This document shows positions 1 through 7,660 of a stretch of DNA of 7,660 bases, piece by piece. Below the pieces are notes generated by a model. It was given only the letters and a program-made list of their open reading frames with translations. It was not told the origin of the DNA and made no database searches. Position numbers and translations under genes: made by a program. Position 1 is the stretch's first letter. Every line of letters starts with the position of its first letter. Source of the stretch: Bacteroidales bacterium (GTDB lineage: Bacteria; Bacteroidota; Bacteroidia; Bacteroidales; Azobacteroidaceae); contig JAJBTS010000317.1 of assembly GCA_020860885.1 (NCBI GenBank), positions 1 to 7,660 of the forward strand, written 5' to 3'.

Positions 1-1001
1 GTTTACTACTACTCAGCTTCAGCTGTCTTTGTTCCTTATCCCTGAATGCCCAGATCAAAATCAAGTCGACCGGGCGCGCACAAATTGGAAACGATCATCC
101 CTATGACTATGGAAGACTGCAGTTAGGAACAGACGGGATAACAGAAGGTATCTCCTTTTTCGACACAAGTAAAGGAGGGACATCGGCCCGCATCTTCAGG
201 ATCAACAACATCCTTTATTTCATACGCGGTGGCTTGAATGCCAAAGGACTAAGGATCAATAGCCAGGGACAGGTCGCCATTGGTGACTTAACCCGGCATA
301 ATTACGATGCAACTGCTTTCCGGCATGCATTTTCCATATTCAGCGAAAATCTGGCTATCGCAACTTATGTCCATCACGATTACGATATGGGAGATGCACA
401 AAAATCTATCGTATACAGGGACCGGACTGCCGCTTACGCGATCTGGAACGGGCCCAATACAAAAACCTGTTACATACAGGGCAATGGTGAGATCTATTCC
501 AAAGGATTATTTATCACTTCGGACGTATCTACCAAAAAAAATATCGAAACGATCCAGGATCCCCTACAGAAAATAATGCAACTCAGGGGAGTGACTTTCC
601 AGTCTGTTTACGATAAGAAGGAACCCATAAAATTAGCCGCCAACTTATCCCAATCCGCGGAGGAAAAAGCCCTGGCCGCACTCTCCCCGGCGGTTATCGC
701 ACAAATGAACAAGGAAACCGAAAGGAAACGGATAGGCGTAGTAGCACAGGAAGTGGAAGCGGTTGTCCCGGAAGCCGTACGAACCACCCACGACGGGAAA
801 AAAGCCGTTTCTTACCCCGAACTGGTCGGATTGCTTATCGAAGCCATGAAAGAGCAACAGGTACAAATAGAGGAGTTACGGGAATATGCAGGCCTGAATA
901 CCAAAGGATCTTACCCCGGCGTGCGTTCTTCCGGAACAGGGGATAATACAACGGCGACTCATCTACCAACCCTGGAATTACACGGATGCAAGCTTTACTA
1001 G
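1..1001 (+). CDS. Secreted tail-fibre-like protein with Peptidase_S74 chaperone domain, 5' partial, ended by in-frame TAG
   Basis: The frame is open from base 3, so the true start lies left of the window. The first visible residues form a signal-peptide core (LLLLSFSCLCSLSLNA|Q, cleavage probably near base 51). A TTG at 234 is in frame but internal, and using it would remove the export signal. The middle is Gly/Asn/Asp-rich and fibre-like. From about base 510 comes a Peptidase_S74 intramolecular chaperone domain, known from phage tail spikes and bacterial surface fibres: TSDVSTKKNIETI, then KRIGVVAQEVEAVVPEAV, SYPELVGLLIEAMKEQQ and a short coiled coil. The catalytic Ser (519-521) and Lys (534-536) have the S-x4-K spacing of self-cleaving members. 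Such domains help trimerise a fibre and may then cut themselves off. Translation stops at TAG 999-1001, but the frame continues into a T9SS sorting domain, so this is probably a disrupted version of a 412-residue-plus protein. The family call is strong; the adhesin or fibre role is inferred. Confidence 0.85.
   Translation, partial: LLLLSFSCLCSLSLNAQIKIKSTGRAQIGNDHPYDYGRLQLGTDGITEGISFFDTSKGGTSARIFRINNILYFIRGGLNAKGLRINSQGQVAIGDLTRHNYDATAFRHAFSIFSENLAIATYVHHDYDMGDAQKSIVYRDRTAAYAIWNGPNTKTCYIQGNGEIYSKGLFITSDVSTKKNIETIQDPLQKIMQLRGVTFQSVYDKKEPIKLAANLSQSAEEKALAALSPAVIAQMNKETERKRIGVVAQEVEAVVPEAVRTTHDGKKAVSYPELVGLLIEAMKEQQVQIEELREYAGLNTKGSYPGVRSSGTGDNTTATHLPTLELHGCKLY
999..1001 (+). other. In-frame amber codon in place of a conserved Gln
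   Basis: The codons read AAG CTT TAC TAG AAC ACT CCC AAC CCT TTT. With CAG instead of TAG this gives LYQNTPNPF, the standard opening of a T9SS type A sorting domain. One C-to-T change explains the stop. No frame change is needed and no other stop occurs from base 3 to 1239. The base after TAG is A, and I see no CARYYA-type readthrough context. Confidence 0.9.
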
Positions 1002-1241
1002 AACACTCCCAACCCTTTTGCGGAAACCACAGAGATCTGTTATGACCTGCCTGTAAACGCTAAAGAAGCATTTATCGGTATCTTTGACATGCAGGGGAAA
1101 ATGCTTAAGAAAATAAATACTTCTTCGGGGAATAACTCTGTAGTACTGCAAGGATCTACTTTGGATGCAGGCATGTACCTCTATACCCTGGTTGTCGACG
1201 GACATGAAATTGACACCAAACGAATGATATTAACCAAATAA
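1002..1241 (+). pseudogene. T9SS type A C-terminal sorting domain, separated from its gene by the amber codon
   Basis: This continues the reading frame of the S74 protein to TAA at 1239-1241. The 79 codons read NTPNPFAETTEICYDLPV..., then IGIFDMQGKMLKKI, LDAGMYLYTLVVDG and end in DTKRMILTK. That is a complete beta-sandwich sorting domain of the kind that directs proteins through the type IX system to the outer membrane surface, where the domain is normally removed by the sortase-like PorU. No convincing start codon opens the domain; its ATGs (for example within FDMQGKM) are internal to the fold, so it is unlikely to be made alone. It is expressed only if the TAG is read through or is a sequence error. 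All hallmark residues are intact, which points to a recent or artefactual stop. Confidence 0.85.
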
Positions 1242-1249
1242 AAAACATC

Positions 1250-2113
1250 ATGAAAAAAACAATTACCTTTTTAATAATAACCGCATTGTGTATGCCCGTT
1301 TTCGCTCAGCAGTTTTCTTTCCAGCTGTATTTCGAATCGGCGCAGGGAGAAAAAGACACACTGGTGTTGGGATATGATCCGTTAGCCACCCAAAGTATTG
1401 ATGAAACATTCGGGGAAGTAGACTACAAAACCCCACGCAGTCCGGATAAGTTCCAGGCATTTATTATCCATCGTTTTTATTATTCAACAAATTGGGGAGA
1501 AGAATTCTACCTGAAAAAGCAAATTGTACCCGTAACCGAGGGACATATGGAAAGCCATGCCATACCCATTATCCTGCCTTACGAGTCGTTACCCGTCAAG
1601 GTAAACTGGGAGAAATCACTTTTCGATTATCCGGAACGCGATCACAGCTTAATAACAGATTGGGCTGTAGATCTATGGTTTGATTCAGGGTATTGCACAT
1701 TTAAAGAATACCTGAAAGATTCGGATACTCTTATCATTGGAGAACCTTACGAAGGTATGTCTAAGATAGAACATACCTTTTCTGATGAAGAGGGATCCAT
1801 TACCTTCCGGACTTTCTATGTGGCTTTTGGAAAAGAAGAAAATGACGGGGTAAGTATTCATCATCCTTCTGCGGACCTTGCCATAACAACATACCCCAAT
1901 CCGGTACAGGATGTGTTTTTCATAAACAATTCTTCTGGAAAGCAAATAAAGCAAACCCGGTTGTTCTCTTACGAAGGAAAAAAAGTCAAAACAGTGGATG
2001 GGAACATAGATTCGGTGGATTGTTCGGAGCTTCCATCGGGAATTTATATATTACAAATAGAAACTACGGATGGAATTCAATACCATAAACTGATTAAAAC
2101 AAATACCTTATGA
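1250..2113 (+). CDS. Secreted protein of unknown function with T9SS type A sorting domain
   Basis: This is 287 residues, starting at ATG 1250, 8 bases after the previous frame's TAA. Residues 1-19 are a signal peptide (MKKTITFLIITALCMPVFA|QQ). Residues about 20-75 include FESAQGEKDTLVLGYDPLAT and SIDETFGEVD, which resembles a recurring module in exported Bacteroidota proteins (G-x-D-T-x-x-x-G-x-D-x-x-A-T-x-x-I-D-x-x-x-G-E) whose function I do not know. Residues about 75-205 look beta-rich with many aromatic residues and match nothing I recognise; no catalytic motif is visible. Residues about 210-287 form a T9SS type A domain: TYPNPVQDVFFI, LFSYEGKKVKTV, LPSGIYILQIETTDG and HKLIKT. The protein should be exported to the cell surface or medium. 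The ATGA overlap with the next gene suggests co-translation with the metalloprotease, so a partner or substrate relationship is possible but inferred. Confidence 0.88.
   Translation: MKKTITFLIITALCMPVFAQQFSFQLYFESAQGEKDTLVLGYDPLATQSIDETFGEVDYKTPRSPDKFQAFIIHRFYYSTNWGEEFYLKKQIVPVTEGHMESHAIPIILPYESLPVKVNWEKSLFDYPERDHSLITDWAVDLWFDSGYCTFKEYLKDSDTLIIGEPYEGMSKIEHTFSDEEGSITFRTFYVAFGKEENDGVSIHHPSADLAITTYPNPVQDVFFINNSSGKQIKQTRLFSYEGKKVKTVDGNIDSVDCSELPSGIYILQIETTDGIQYHKLIKTNTL
2110..2113 (+). promoter_or_regulatory. ATGA stop/start overlap (translational coupling site)
   Basis: The TGA stop of the upstream gene (2111-2113) shares bases with the ATG of the metalloprotease gene (2110-2112). There is no clear Shine-Dalgarno ahead of it (AAACAAATACCTT), so re-initiation by the terminating ribosome is the likely route. 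This supports one operon. Confidence 0.75.
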
Positions 2114-3843
2114 AAAACCCATATATTGTTATCTTTTGCTTATTCTTATCGTTGAAAAGCCTGGCCCAAAACCCTTATTGGGAAATTGAATGTGGGATGC
2201 ACGAATGTGAAGACTGCCAGCAGGATAGTGACACTTCAAGCATGAGGAATTCTTCAACCTGCTATGTGCTACCTCAAAGTTCAAGAATTTACGACGAAAA
2301 ATTCAAACCGCATGCCGGCCAACCCATCATTCCCATACGGGTAAATTTCATTTTTATGCAGCGCGACGATGGCTCCGGAGGATTCCAGGAAAACGATCCC
2401 GAACACCAGGAACTATTCGACCAGGTGGTCGAAGGGATGAACCGGACGTATGCCCAATTGGTACGGACAGACGATCCCAAATGCTACAAAGGAACAGACT
2501 TTATTCCTGATGTCCGGATCAAATTTATCGTTAACAGGGTATATATACGCGATACCTACGGATGGAACAACGACAGGTCCGGCCAATTATGCCCGGATCA
2601 ACCATCCTGGTACCTGAATAACATAGACAACCGGGTAGTCAATAATCCCAACATTCCCAGGGGCATTAATATTTACTTTACCGAGAATGCGACCGTTTAC
2701 AGGAACCTGGTCGAACTGCAGAATACAAGGGAACTCGGGGGAAACGCCATGGCATGTTCTCAACAGCCATCTACAGATAATTATATTCAGTCCTCTAGAG
2801 TGCATATGCCGGGGAACTATGCCGCTTACTGGTGGTTCAAATATATAAAACCCGAAGACGATGAAGAAGGAAGGACCTGGGAAAATACATTCAAATGGTA
2901 TTTCATAGATGGGGCAAGACGGGGAATTGCCCATGAGATAGGACATTCTCTCGCACTTCGTCATGAGGCAGACCCTCACCATGGTAGAAATGAATGTCAT
3001 GTCAGTATTATGTCCCAATCCGGATACTCTCCCCGCAATTATTTACCGCCCAGCGAAGTGGGCAGGATCCATGCCGCACTTTCCTTAACCAGTCTGAGGA
3101 CCTTTGTCCCGGACAGCGTATACATAGGAATAAAAGAAATCAACGGGACCGATACCTGGCACAATATGAGGTTGTACAGCAGTTTGAAAATCAACAGGAA
3201 CGCAACCCTTACTTTTCCCTGTGAAATGACGATGCCTTACCAGGGGAACATTGAGGTGCTCGGCAAATTGGTCCTCAATAATTCCACTATCCGTTCCATC
3301 AAAAACGACTGGAAAGGCATAACGGTAAAGTCCGGCGGAGTACTGGAAATAAACGCTACTTCCATCAACGATTACAATGTCGTGGTAGAAAGCGGCGGAA
3401 CCCTCCTGATCAAAGAACAATTAACTATTTCGGGAAACCACAGCATTACGGTAAAATCAGGAGGACGGATCTGCATAGAACCATCGGCAGTGATCCATCT
3501 GGCCGATAAAGAAAGCTGCCTGAACTTAATGTCGGGATACCTGGCGGGAAGCCCGCTGTCGTCTTCCTGCTCTAATTCCCTTTTCTCTTACCCGATATCC
3601 GGAAACGGAAGCATAAAAGATTACAACCGGGATGTATTTATCCAGAATGAAGAAATAAGAAGCCAGCGTACTTACTCGGGAAGGAACATCTATGTAGGAA
3701 ATTCGGTTACCACCACGGTTTCTCAAGGAGACGTGGTTATCAGCAACAATGCGAAAGTTACTTTCGATGCCGAAAAGGAGGTGGTGCTTGATAAAGGATT
3801 CGAATGCAAAATAGGATCCGAAATTACAGTGATAAAGAAGTAA
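2110..3843 (+). CDS. Secreted zinc metalloprotease (metzincin-like, pappalysin/M43-type resemblance) with beta-helix-like region and coathanger-like C-terminus
   Basis: This is 577 residues. Residues 1-19 are a signal peptide (MKNPYIVIFCLFLSLKSLA|Q). A Cys-rich stretch follows (CGMHECEDCQ), then a core resembling Bacteroidota M43-like proteases (IPIRVNFIFMQRDDGSGG; GINIYFTENATV). The zinc site is HEIGHSLALRH, with His275, Glu276, His279 and His285. A likely Met-turn, SIMSQSG, has Met301. The usual metzincin Gly of HExxHxxGxxH is Ala here. Residues about 385-470 carry short repeats (ITVKSGGVLEI, VVVESGGTLLI, ITVKSGGRICI at 404, 424 and 446), like rungs of a beta-helix. The last 50 or so residues (VSQGDVVISNNAKVTF; VVLDKGFECKIGSEI) resemble the '3-coathanger' module at the ends of exported Bacteroidota proteins, rather than a type A sorting domain. 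Metalloprotease activity is well supported; the exact family and substrate are not known. Translation is probably coupled to the upstream gene. Confidence 0.88.
   Translation: MKNPYIVIFCLFLSLKSLAQNPYWEIECGMHECEDCQQDSDTSSMRNSSTCYVLPQSSRIYDEKFKPHAGQPIIPIRVNFIFMQRDDGSGGFQENDPEHQELFDQVVEGMNRTYAQLVRTDDPKCYKGTDFIPDVRIKFIVNRVYIRDTYGWNNDRSGQLCPDQPSWYLNNIDNRVVNNPNIPRGINIYFTENATVYRNLVELQNTRELGGNAMACSQQPSTDNYIQSSRVHMPGNYAAYWWFKYIKPEDDEEGRTWENTFKWYFIDGARRGIAHEIGHSLALRHEADPHHGRNECHVSIMSQSGYSPRNYLPPSEVGRIHAALSLTSLRTFVPDSVYIGIKEINGTDTWHNMRLYSSLKINRNATLTFPCEMTMPYQGNIEVLGKLVLNNSTIRSIKNDWKGITVKSGGVLEINATSINDYNVVVESGGTLLIKEQLTISGNHSITVKSGGRICIEPSAVIHLADKESCLNLMSGYLAGSPLSSSCSNSLFSYPISGNGSIKDYNRDVFIQNEEIRSQRTYSGRNIYVGNSVTTTVSQGDVVISNNAKVTFDAEKEVVLDKGFECKIGSEITVIKK
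3319..3507 (+). repeat. Beta-helix-like 20-22 residue repeats inside the metalloprotease
   Basis: Three units begin at residues 404, 424 and 446 (bases 3319, 3379 and 3445). Each has the pattern hydrophobic-hydrophobic-V-(K/E)-S-G-G-x-hydrophobic-x-I, then a variable 10-12 residues. The period of 20-22 residues fits rungs of a right-handed parallel beta-helix. A weaker related unit (IEVLGKLVLNNSTI) precedes them. The repeats are at the protein level; DNA identity is low, so they are old. Confidence 0.65.
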
Positions 3844-3965: not shown

Positions 3966-5483
3966 CTATTTATTTTTTTCACGTTCGAGGATATTCATCA
4001 ATTCATTCACTTTTTCGGGATATTCTTCCGCTACGTTGTTCTTTTCACCGATGTCTTCCGAAAGATTATACAACTGAGGCTGTTTGTCGTTTCCCAGTTC
4101 CGTATTTGTCCAACGGCTATAAGCAGCTCCATTGTTTGGAGCAATGTATTTCCATTCGCCTGTGGTAACGGAAATAGATCCTGCTTTTTCTATCACGTAA
4201 TCCCGGCCTTTCTTATCTTCGCCCAACAAAGCTGCCAACTGATCCTGGCTATCCACCGCAGTTCCTTCCGGAACAGGCTTATCAATCAGTTTTGCCAGGG
4301 AAGCAAACATATCGATATGAGAAACCAAAGCATCGGAAACATCCCATTTTATTTTCTTAGGCCAGTGTACAATAAAGGGAACGCGGGTACCGGCTTCAAA
4401 ATTGCTGTACTTCCCTCCCCGGAACTCACCCCACGGACGATGATCGCCCAACAATTCCACGGCCTGGTCCTGATAGCCATCGTCTACTACCGGTCCGTTA
4501 TCGCTGGTTAGTATTATCAATGTATTTTCTGTCAGTCCGTGCTTTTCCAATGCAGCCATGATCTGAGCCACACTCCAATCGAATTCCAGAATAGCATCTC
4601 CTCTCGGCCCCATACCGCTTTTACCGGCGAAGCGGGGATGCGGAACTCTCGGCACATGAATATCGTTGGTTGCAAAATACAGGAAGAAGGGTTTATCGTG
4701 ATTTCGTTCTATAAACTGTACCGCTTTATGGGTAATACTATCCGCTATATTCTCATCCATCCACAAAGCCTGTTTGCCTCCTTTCATATACCCTATCCTT
4801 GAAATACCGTTCACAATGGCCATATCGTGGCCATGACTGGGTTTCTGAATGTATAATAATTCCGGATGATTTCTACCCAAAGGTTCTCCCGGGAAAGAGT
4901 CTTTGTAGCTGACAGCAATAGGATCGTTCGTATCCAGATTTACTACCCGTTGATCTTCTACATAAACACAAGGAACCCGGTCTCCGGTAGCTGCCATGAT
5001 GTAAGAATAATCAAAACCGATGTCCGAAGGACCCGGAGTAATAAAACCATTCCAATCCTGCGATCCGGTAGTCTCCCCCAATCCCAGATGCCACTTACCG
5101 ACTGCAGCCGTAGCGTATCCGTTGTCCCTGAACAGGTCGGCAATGGTGGTTTGCTCCGGACGAATGATCATTCCGGCATCTCCTGTCGCAATACCCGTAT
5201 CGTTCCTTCTCCAGGCATAATGACCGGTCAGTAAAGAATAGCGGGAAGGAGTACTGGTCGAAGCTACTGCGTGAGCATCGGTAAAGCGGACTCCGTTTTC
5301 CGCCAGTTTGTCCACATTGGGAGTATGGATGGTTGTCTCCCCGTTGCAACTTAAATCGCCGTAACCAATATCGTCGGCAAGAATAACGATCACATTGGGC
5401 GGTGTCGCTTCCGGAGTACATGCCGCAGCAAAAGCCAGTAAAAAGGCAGGAGTGGCATGTAAAGGCTTGAATCTTTTTTTCAT
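3966..5483 (-). CDS. Ser-type sulfatase lipoprotein (sulfatase S1 family)
   Basis: This is 505 residues, hydrolysing sulfate esters, probably on glycans. Residues 1-22 are a lipoprotein signal: basic start, hydrophobic core and lipobox LAFAAAC with the lipidated Cys22 (5418-5420). The fold motifs are in order: metal ligands in ADDIGYGD (Asp37, Asp38); the active-site signature STPSR with Ser77 (5253-5255) as the residue expected to become formylglycine; RYSLLTG; GKWHLG (Lys130, His132); NDIHVPRVPH (His276); and TSDNGP (Asp328, Asn329). A Ser rather than Cys at position 77 means maturation needs an anaerobic radical-SAM enzyme (anSME), encoded elsewhere. The length is normal. The first gene of the operon is the GH84 enzyme, 79 bases upstream, so joint removal of sulfate and GlcNAc from a host glycan is likely. 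I cannot assign the S1 subfamily or sulfate position. The stop is TAG, followed two codons later by an in-frame TAA. The gap 5484-5562 is AT-rich and I see no convincing promoter in it. Confidence 0.93.
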   Translation of the reverse strand: MKKRFKPLHATPAFLLAFAAACTPEATPPNVIVILADDIGYGDLSCNGETTIHTPNVDKLAENGVRFTDAHAVASTSTPSRYSLLTGHYAWRRNDTGIATGDAGMIIRPEQTTIADLFRDNGYATAAVGKWHLGLGETTGSQDWNGFITPGPSDIGFDYSYIMAATGDRVPCVYVEDQRVVNLDTNDPIAVSYKDSFPGEPLGRNHPELLYIQKPSHGHDMAIVNGISRIGYMKGGKQALWMDENIADSITHKAVQFIERNHDKPFFLYFATNDIHVPRVPHPRFAGKSGMGPRGDAILEFDWSVAQIMAALEKHGLTENTLIILTSDNGPVVDDGYQDQAVELLGDHRPWGEFRGGKYSNFEAGTRVPFIVHWPKKIKWDVSDALVSHIDMFASLAKLIDKPVPEGTAVDSQDQLAALLGEDKKGRDYVIEKAGSISVTTGEWKYIAPNNGAAYSRWTNTELGNDKQPQLYNLSEDIGEKNNVAEEYPEKVNELMNILEREKNK

Positions 5484-5562: not shown

Positions 5563-7660
5563 TCATTTGCGGGATTCCGTTTCCAAAGTTAATTCCAATC
5601 CTTTAAAATGAATCTCCTGATCCGTTTCTTTGTTTGTAAAACGGAGATATTTAGCCTTCATAGGATTTAACATAGCTACTATTGGAGTCTGATCCATAGA
5701 AATCTTCACGGTTTTCCAGGACTTGCCATCGGGAGATATTTCAACCTTCATCCACGCATGTTGCGATACAGGTTCGACATTTATTCTTAATGTATGCAAC
5801 ACATATTCGTCATCCATCTCCAGCTGGATATATTCCTCTTTTCCCCAATGAACCACTTCATTCACCGGAGCAATAGAGATACGGTTCAATTTAGACTGGA
5901 CAGGTAGATTTTTAATTTGTGCAACTGTTCCGCTTAGCTTATAAGGATTATAAGATAAAACTTTATCCAGGGAAGTATTCCATTGCCGGTTGTAAGCCTC
6001 TACCAGATATTCAAAGAAATCATCGATAAACGGCTGTAAGACCAGAGACCCCGTTTTTACTCCCGGCTGGTAAGGATTCTGGTTGTAAGATTTATCAATG
6101 TTGTAATTGATTTTACGGAGCGCTTTTACATACTCATATTTATCCATAAAATTGCTTGTATCTTTTTTTACAAAAGCATCGTACAATTTGAGAGTATTTG
6201 TTCCTGTTTCTCCCATATTTTTAAATTGATAGATCCAGGGTTCTATTTCTTTTATCAAAATTCCATTGTCTGTACTCGCCAGTAACAGATCGGCCGACTC
6301 TATAATCTCTTCAAATTCTTTCCTTATAGATTCAAGCTCCTGTTTGTGCAGCTGAATGTTACCCGATTGTATTCCTTCGGTAACCTTTTTCACAGCAGGC
6401 GCAATATCTGCGGATTCCTCCCGGCGAAAGCCATGCCCGTTTTTTCCCAGATCCGAATTGTGTTGAGAAAACTTATACAATGCTTTGTAGGATAAAGGCA
6501 TTAAAGATCGGATACCCTTTTCCCACGATTGCTGACTATCAAAAGAACGCAGGTTCCAGGTATAATCCGCGACAGAAAAGATAGCAACCTTAGAAGCCTC
6601 TGCCCGCTCCATAGGATTAGCGACAAAACCGGAAACCAGATTCCCTATCGTCAGATCATTTCCATAGACACGTCCCATCAACAAATGATCCCGGACATAA
6701 TCCGACACGGGAAAATTCCACCAGATATAAGCCGGACGACCGATTTGCTCATTGATCCAATGAACACTCGGTTCGGTGATTTCGGCAATTACCCGGTCGC
6801 CCGTCCACATAATATGTATGGAAGAATTCAATTTACTTCCTAAGGTCTTCAGATAACCCTTCTCCGGGTTTGACCAGCTTTTGTTGTACTCTGTAGGGCA
6901 CATGATGAGAGGAGTTACATCCTTTTTCTGTGAAATAAACCGGTCATCCAGATAATTCAATAACTCCGCCTGTTTCTGAGGATCCGTTCCCACTCCCGAT
7001 ATATCGTCAAAAAATACCGCAAAAGAACGTACCCCTAATTGGTACATATATTCAAACTTATTTAGTATAGCTTCCCTATCCGCATCCGTCCATTGAATAT
7101 CCTTCCCGGGGTGAATAGCCCAGACAAAATCCACTTTGCTCTTCGCAGAGGCATCCACCAAACGCCGTATTTTATCCGCTTCATCGTCCGGATAAGGTTC
7201 CCTCCAGTGAGGAGAACTGTGGTAAGGATCATCTTTCGGACCGTATATATAAGTATTCAATTTTGTTTTCCCATAAAACTCAATTTGTCTTAAACGGTCT
7301 TCGAAACTCCAGGGAGCGCCATAAAAGCCTTCTACCACTCCTCGGAACAGAATATCCGGATAATCCCGGATCATTACTTCGGGAAGAGTCCCTGAATTTA
7401 TTAATTGCAGTAAAGTTTGAACAGCATAAAATGTTCCCCGTCCGTCCGATCCCGCCAATACGATCTGCTTAGGCGTAATCTGCAGGTAATAACCTTCCGC
7501 TTTATCGGGAATTTCTTTTGAAAAGGATTTTACAGAAGCGTCTCCTTTCTGACCTATAGTGATCTTAAAATTACTCTTATTTACAGAGGAGTCAAAAACG
7601 GTTTGCAACAGTTCCAGAGCCATCGGATCAGCCTCTTTTATTCCTTCTATGGAATAAGAC
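5563..7660 (-). CDS. GH84 beta-N-acetylglucosaminidase (O-GlcNAcase-like), 5' partial
   Basis: The frame stays open past ATG 7623 to the window edge (SYSIEGIKEADPM...), so the true start and signal peptide lie outside; by comparison with family members I estimate 40-50 residues are missing. There are 698 visible residues. The order is: an N-terminal alpha/beta domain (YYLQITPKQIVLAGSDGRG; TFYAVQTLLQLI); a catalytic barrel starting FRGVVEGFYGAPWS, with IYGPKDDPYHSSPHWR and the catalytic Asp pair in FAVFFDDISG (Asp codons 7006-7008 and 7003-7005), then MCPTEYNKSW, MWTGDRV, YIWWNFPVSDYVRDHLL and HNSDLGKNGHG; a helical region; and a C-terminal beta-sandwich (EISPDGKSWKTVKI; KYLRFTNKE). The sequence closely follows, from memory, the B. 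thetaiotaomicron GH84 enzyme used as a model of human O-GlcNAcase. It removes terminal beta-GlcNAc by substrate-assisted catalysis. It is probably periplasmic or outer-membrane associated, and shares an operon with the sulfatase. Confidence 0.96.
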   Translation of the reverse strand, partial: SYSIEGIKEADPMALELLQTVFDSSVNKSNFKITIGQKGDASVKSFSKEIPDKAEGYYLQITPKQIVLAGSDGRGTFYAVQTLLQLINSGTLPEVMIRDYPDILFRGVVEGFYGAPWSFEDRLRQIEFYGKTKLNTYIYGPKDDPYHSSPHWREPYPDDEADKIRRLVDASAKSKVDFVWAIHPGKDIQWTDADREAILNKFEYMYQLGVRSFAVFFDDISGVGTDPQKQAELLNYLDDRFISQKKDVTPLIMCPTEYNKSWSNPEKGYLKTLGSKLNSSIHIMWTGDRVIAEITEPSVHWINEQIGRPAYIWWNFPVSDYVRDHLLMGRVYGNDLTIGNLVSGFVANPMERAEASKVAIFSVADYTWNLRSFDSQQSWEKGIRSLMPLSYKALYKFSQHNSDLGKNGHGFRREESADIAPAVKKVTEGIQSGNIQLHKQELESIRKEFEEIIESADLLLASTDNGILIKEIEPWIYQFKNMGETGTNTLKLYDAFVKKDTSNFMDKYEYVKALRKINYNIDKSYNQNPYQPGVKTGSLVLQPFIDDFFEYLVEAYNRQWNTSLDKVLSYNPYKLSGTVAQIKNLPVQSKLNRISIAPVNEVVHWGKEEYIQLEMDDEYVLHTLRINVEPVSQHAWMKVEISPDGKSWKTVKISMDQTPIVAMLNPMKAKYLRFTNKETDQEIHFKGLELTLETESRK

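Follow-up and report, generated by a model that had tools for sequence, protein, structure and literature searches.

Organization of the locus

The window, that is the whole 7,660-nucleotide stretch of DNA that was analysed, is contig C398 of a draft Bacteroidales genome (GenBank assembly GCA_020860885.1) of 3.0 Mb in 438 contigs, 92% complete, and its genus, as grouped in the database, also includes a pair of smaller genomes (1.0 and 1.2 Mb) with 99% completeness. The lineage may be one of termite guts. The contig begins within the focal gene, whose start codon lies outside the window. Translation of positions 3-1300 confirmed the frame given in a preliminary description of this DNA: it is open from 3 to 1241 except for a TAG at 999-1001, and it terminates with a TAA at 1239-1241. 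The TAG sits on the Gln of LYQNxPNPF, the motif at the start of the type A sorting domain of the type IX secretion system (T9SS), and splits the S74 body and the sorting domain, which are not in one uninterrupted frame. The features of the region are the following.

3..998, + strand: open frame of 332 residues before the stop, 5' end beyond the contig edge
3-53, + strand: hydrophobic signal-peptide-like stretch, assessed by visual inspection of sequence and alignment
519..782, + strand: Peptidase_S74 (Chaperone of endosialidase) domain, PF13884, E 3.2e-12, residues 173-260
999..1001, + strand: in-frame amber codon (TAG) where the sorting-domain motif has its Gln, from translation and from the alignments of homologues and genomic relatives
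1008..1226, + strand: T9SS type A sorting domain, after the stop and in frame, PF18962 E 2e-9, TIGR04183 40.6 bits (cut-off 23)
1239..1241, + strand: TAA, frame end as in homologues, from translation and alignment
1250..2113, + strand: next gene, 287 residues, with its own T9SS sorting domain and without internal stop, from profile matches

The body upstream of the TAG had been called an S74 protein from the letters alone, and the PF13884 match (47 bits, cut-off 22) bears this out; likewise, the sorting domain described as intact beyond the stop is recovered by both profiles, the downstream piece of 79 residues matching Por_Secre_tail (PF18962). When compared to T9SS type A cargo (PF18962 / TIGR04183), the locus has the full sorting domain, the total length and the domain order of its S74-T9SS relatives, but the sorting domain is severed from the body by the stop. 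For S74 in combination with type IX secretion, no paper turned up in the library that was searched.

Further downstream, a 577-residue frame (2110-3843, + strand) carries HEIGHSLALRHE, which we take to resemble a metzincin zinc motif; the frame has no Pfam family at 0.001 and its C-terminal 3-coathanger (GCX_COOH) match is below cut-off (24.3 vs 26 bits). On the opposite strand, a sulfatase (3966-5483) with S-T-P-S-R, presumably the usual formylglycine site of the serine type, adjoins a NAGidase/GH84-type gene at 5563-7659.

The stop is private to the focal genome

A search of 5.8 billion proteins returned 935 homologues, and the best 120 of the 935, focal protein included, were compared at the stop site. 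The TAG had been placed on a conserved Gln, and this holds: among the 119 other homologues listed the residue is Gln in 115, with Pro, Asn, Asp and Gly found once each. All 119 extend at least 69 residues beyond the site, through the sorting domain, and the idea that orthologues normally end at this point is therefore rejected for the homologues listed. At the genome level, 39 genomes other than the focal one gave matches, and the loci were read as DNA in 29 of the 39. Each of the 27 relatives of the same order that could be aligned has a Gln codon at the site (19 CAA, 8 CAG) and none has a stop there, which makes the TAG private to the focal genome so far. The closest homologue among those listed is only 51% identical to the focal protein, and no other strain of the focal species was found among them. 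Judged from these alignments, the stop is abnormal for the family.

One relative (G004) aligns only from residue 334 onward. At 3257-3613 of its locus L079, a short frame has a signal-peptide-like start fused almost straight to a T9SS sorting domain, with no S74, and this sorting domain is 66% identical to the focal tail. The S74 body being absent, the short frame (L054/L079) was set aside as evidence on the stop.

Stops do occur in other members of the family, with 8 of the 93 family matches listed containing one (4 TAG, focal included, 3 TAA and 1 TGA). In a genome of the same taxonomic family, a tandem paralogue has TAG where the adjoining copy has a Gln codon; in genome G034, two copies are also frame-changed, one of these with a TAA. 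The TAG reported in the match listing for contig C123 of G034 lies in neither realigned frame and may sit at the frame change. These cases bear on the alternative that the focal TAG is an assembly or sequencing artefact, either a wrong consensus base or the minority base of a mixed population, with the gene open in most cells. Family stops in other assemblies speak against it, as do the two frame-changed copies, which show decay in relatives; in its favour are the fragmentation of the draft into 438 contigs and the capacity of base damage or low coverage to produce such a stop pattern.

Other single in-frame stops in the genome

A total of 708,534 bases of contigs from the same genome, about a quarter of it, were scanned for frames that look coding across a stop. 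The scan gave 18 candidates, focal included (TAA 9, TAG 5, TGA 4), and many of them look, judged from the sequence, like adjacent genes or non-coding stretches. Ten stops were picked for Pfam searches on the separate pieces; being picked, they are a mix and not an unbiased count. The GH88 case (L159) comes from two earlier scans, because the final scan drops frames whose first ATG lies more than 9 codons from the start. Matches to the same family on both sides of the stop were found in three of the ten, namely GH88, glycogen synthase (upstream match under cut-off) and CARDB repeats. The other seven have a match on one side or none: an AI-2E transporter, a LanC-like gene counted twice (under cut-off), a metallophosphoesterase, DUF4874, a methyltransferase, and the gene of locus L265, which has no Pfam match at all.

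At four of these stops the residue of related sequences could be read. The methyltransferase TAG corresponds to Gln in all 24 loci compared, which come from 23 genomes and include two that overlap, and the TAA of the DUF4874 gene to Gln in 6 of 6 (five from three relatives, one an own paralogue). The GH88 TAG falls on a Trp in 17 of 19 loci, with one Leu and one unaligned, and the TGA of the L265 gene corresponds to TGG in the sole own-genome sequence matching the pattern. All four, and the focal stop with them, are reachable by one C-to-T or G-to-A step. The preliminary description had suggested looking for further TAGs at conserved Gln positions; the methyltransferase provides one, but the GH88 TAG lies on a Trp.

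Three of the loci deserve a comment of their own. In another genome of the genus (G012, locus L281), the methyltransferase family has an in-frame TAG elsewhere, the Gln being kept there. The LanC-like frame (L187, 715-1693, - strand) gives a weak match, under cut-off, and contains a TGA and a TAG about 115 codons apart; it is possibly a decaying gene. The glycogen synthase frame (L251, 2-1654, + strand) has one TAA, 122 bases from the contig start, with Pfam matches at 1-26 (under cut-off) before it and at 47-340 after it.

A single transition yields TAG from CAG or TGG only, hence Gln codons are among the places where such a stop is to be expected. In frames of at least 250 codons, the opportunities for such transitions number 5832 for TAG, 3283 for TAA and 2912 for TGA. 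TAG makes up 5 of the 18 scan candidates but only 48 of the 536 terminal stops, and we explain this difference by transitions offering TAG most often. With so few cases, some amber-specific effect may still contribute. Altogether, the in-frame stops resemble everyday nonsense mutations, in the focal case within a come-and-go family of putative surface proteins, or C-to-T errors. The artefact reading gains from the fact that the four other residue-read stops also fit C-to-T or G-to-A changes that hit conserved positions of otherwise intact-looking genes, and it loses from the position of most followed-up stops away from contig ends, the glycogen synthase being the exception. On balance we regard an artefact as unlikely, though a possibility to be taken seriously.

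TAG is probably not recoded in this genome

The reassignment of TAG to Gln, known as genetic code 15 in some gut phages, had been raised for this locus together with an amber suppressor, and the focal TAG does resemble code 15 in its position at a conserved Gln. Counting the focal one, two unrelated genes of the genome have TAG at such a residue. The rest of the evidence points the other way. The RF1 gene (prfA) is intact, with 503.8 bits against a cut-off of 423.25 and no stop. No CUA anticodon was found among 32 typed tRNAs (150 of the 175 first-look candidates scored), a set that is incomplete, as it also lacks tRNAs for His, Asn, Ile and Val; its lack of a UAG-reading tRNA is therefore weak evidence. 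Stops are present in none of 84 domain matches of the focal genome (53 ABC, 10 sulfatase and 21 Plug), and TAG terminates 48 of the 536 coding-like frames whose ends were counted over the same 708,534 bases, next to 365 for TAA and 123 for TGA. Moreover, TAG also interrupts a gene at a conserved Trp, and TAA and TGA lesions are found in the same genome. The focal case thus differs from code 15 in being a host genome with RF1, in which no CUA tRNA was found, TAG falls on Trp too, and other stop codons are involved. Reassignment of TAG to Gln, or its reading by a dedicated suppressor tRNA, is in our estimate extremely improbable, and the sequence evidence indicates that TAG is likely an ordinary stop here rather than a sign of a new genetic code.

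The sequence beyond the stop is undecayed

The ratio of downstream to upstream identity is 1.341 for the focal protein, within the 1.187-1.613 observed in 23 intact homologues, which fits a recent event. By this comparison, the tail has kept the level of conservation seen in intact relatives. The change would then be recent, or an error, or one that truncates only part of the product; tail conservation does not separate recent mutation, error and readthrough.

The last of these could take the form of a leaky amber, in which a near-cognate tRNA such as tRNA-Gln(CUG) reads TAG at a low rate, so that some of the protein would still be sorted to the surface and its display would be lowered or varied. 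A tRNA-Gln with anticodon CUG is present in the focal genome, the tail is undecayed, and bacterial in-frame CAG/TAG alternation with dN/dS below 1 is reported in published work on in-frame stops (PMC7918605). However, recency accounts for the tail equally well, and similar-looking TAA and TGA lesions exist in the genome. Conservation of the stop among orthologues, a mark of readthrough, was not seen in any of the 27 alignable relatives; with the stop in one sequence only, conservation lends no functional support. We therefore consider a leaky amber improbable. Still less probable is that the amber, being leaky or polymorphic, acts at the first motif of the sorting domain as a dimmer in the population, by which most of the S74 protein would be periplasmic and only a fraction, through readthrough or in sister cells, would be displayed.

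A probable recent nonsense mutation and its predicted consequence

We propose that the in-frame TAG is probably a recent single-base nonsense mutation, the product of which is predicted to lack the sorting domain and to be periplasmic. Among the options listed in the preliminary description, a nonsense mutation leaving the protein unsorted is thus the best supported, and recoding or suppression is not supported, given an intact RF1 and stops of mixed kinds. A C-to-T step would have turned the Gln codon into TAG at 999-1001. Termination there, taken as efficient, would yield the S74 body without the T9SS sorting domain; the signal peptide, assumed to work, would export this truncated protein, which would fold and stay in the periplasm, and surface display would be lost for one of several paralogues. 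Four points in this sequence of events are inferred: a real base, efficient termination, a functional signal peptide, and the folding and retention of the truncated S74 protein.

The genomic context agrees with this prediction. According to two papers, a Sec signal peptide takes T9SS cargo across the inner membrane, whereas passage through the outer membrane depends on the C-terminal domain (PMC10202324, PMC4560394). The gene for the SprA translocon, the sole T9SS component sought, is present as an open frame of 2502 residues without a stop (SprA_N, 667.8 bits). Since the sorting domain is needed for the outer membrane and SprA is present, a body without the domain is predicted to be periplasmic. 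The genome has 58 TIGR04183 matches at E 0.01 or better, three of which contain a stop (2 TAA, 1 TAG), two of the three scoring under the cut-off of the family. The focal tail is counted as open among the 58, its match beginning past the TAG. Two paralogues are open through the sorting domain (contig C213, 416 residues; contig C274, 354 residues), and loss of the focal copy may cost little.

Several points weigh against a recent nonsense mutation. A C-to-T error in assembly or sequencing predicts an identical picture, lone lesions at conserved residues included; the methyltransferase that carries a stop is not obviously dispensable, its family being kept in 23 of 57 other genomes; and the undecayed tail is equally expected under readthrough.

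The proposed mutation has precedents. Belinky et al. 2021 (PMC7918605) report in-frame stops as widespread within bacterial genes, a CAG/TAG example included, and as tending to last no longer than polymorphisms of a population; recurrence in at least two genomes was required there to reduce errors. As in those cases, the focal gene has a lone TAG at a Gln codon of its relatives and is otherwise intact, but the focal TAG is known from a single assembly whereas theirs are found in at least two genomes. The finding is real as sequence and ordinary as biology, and its base is unproven.

The locus carries a caution: a stop on a conserved Gln mimics recoding, yet transitions make TAG exactly at Gln and Trp codons. 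The focal genome is in this respect a counter-example to claims of amber recoding that are built on a single site. A C/T mixture at the site, if true, would make the locus a minor natural example of surface display switched on and off via a T9SS tag.
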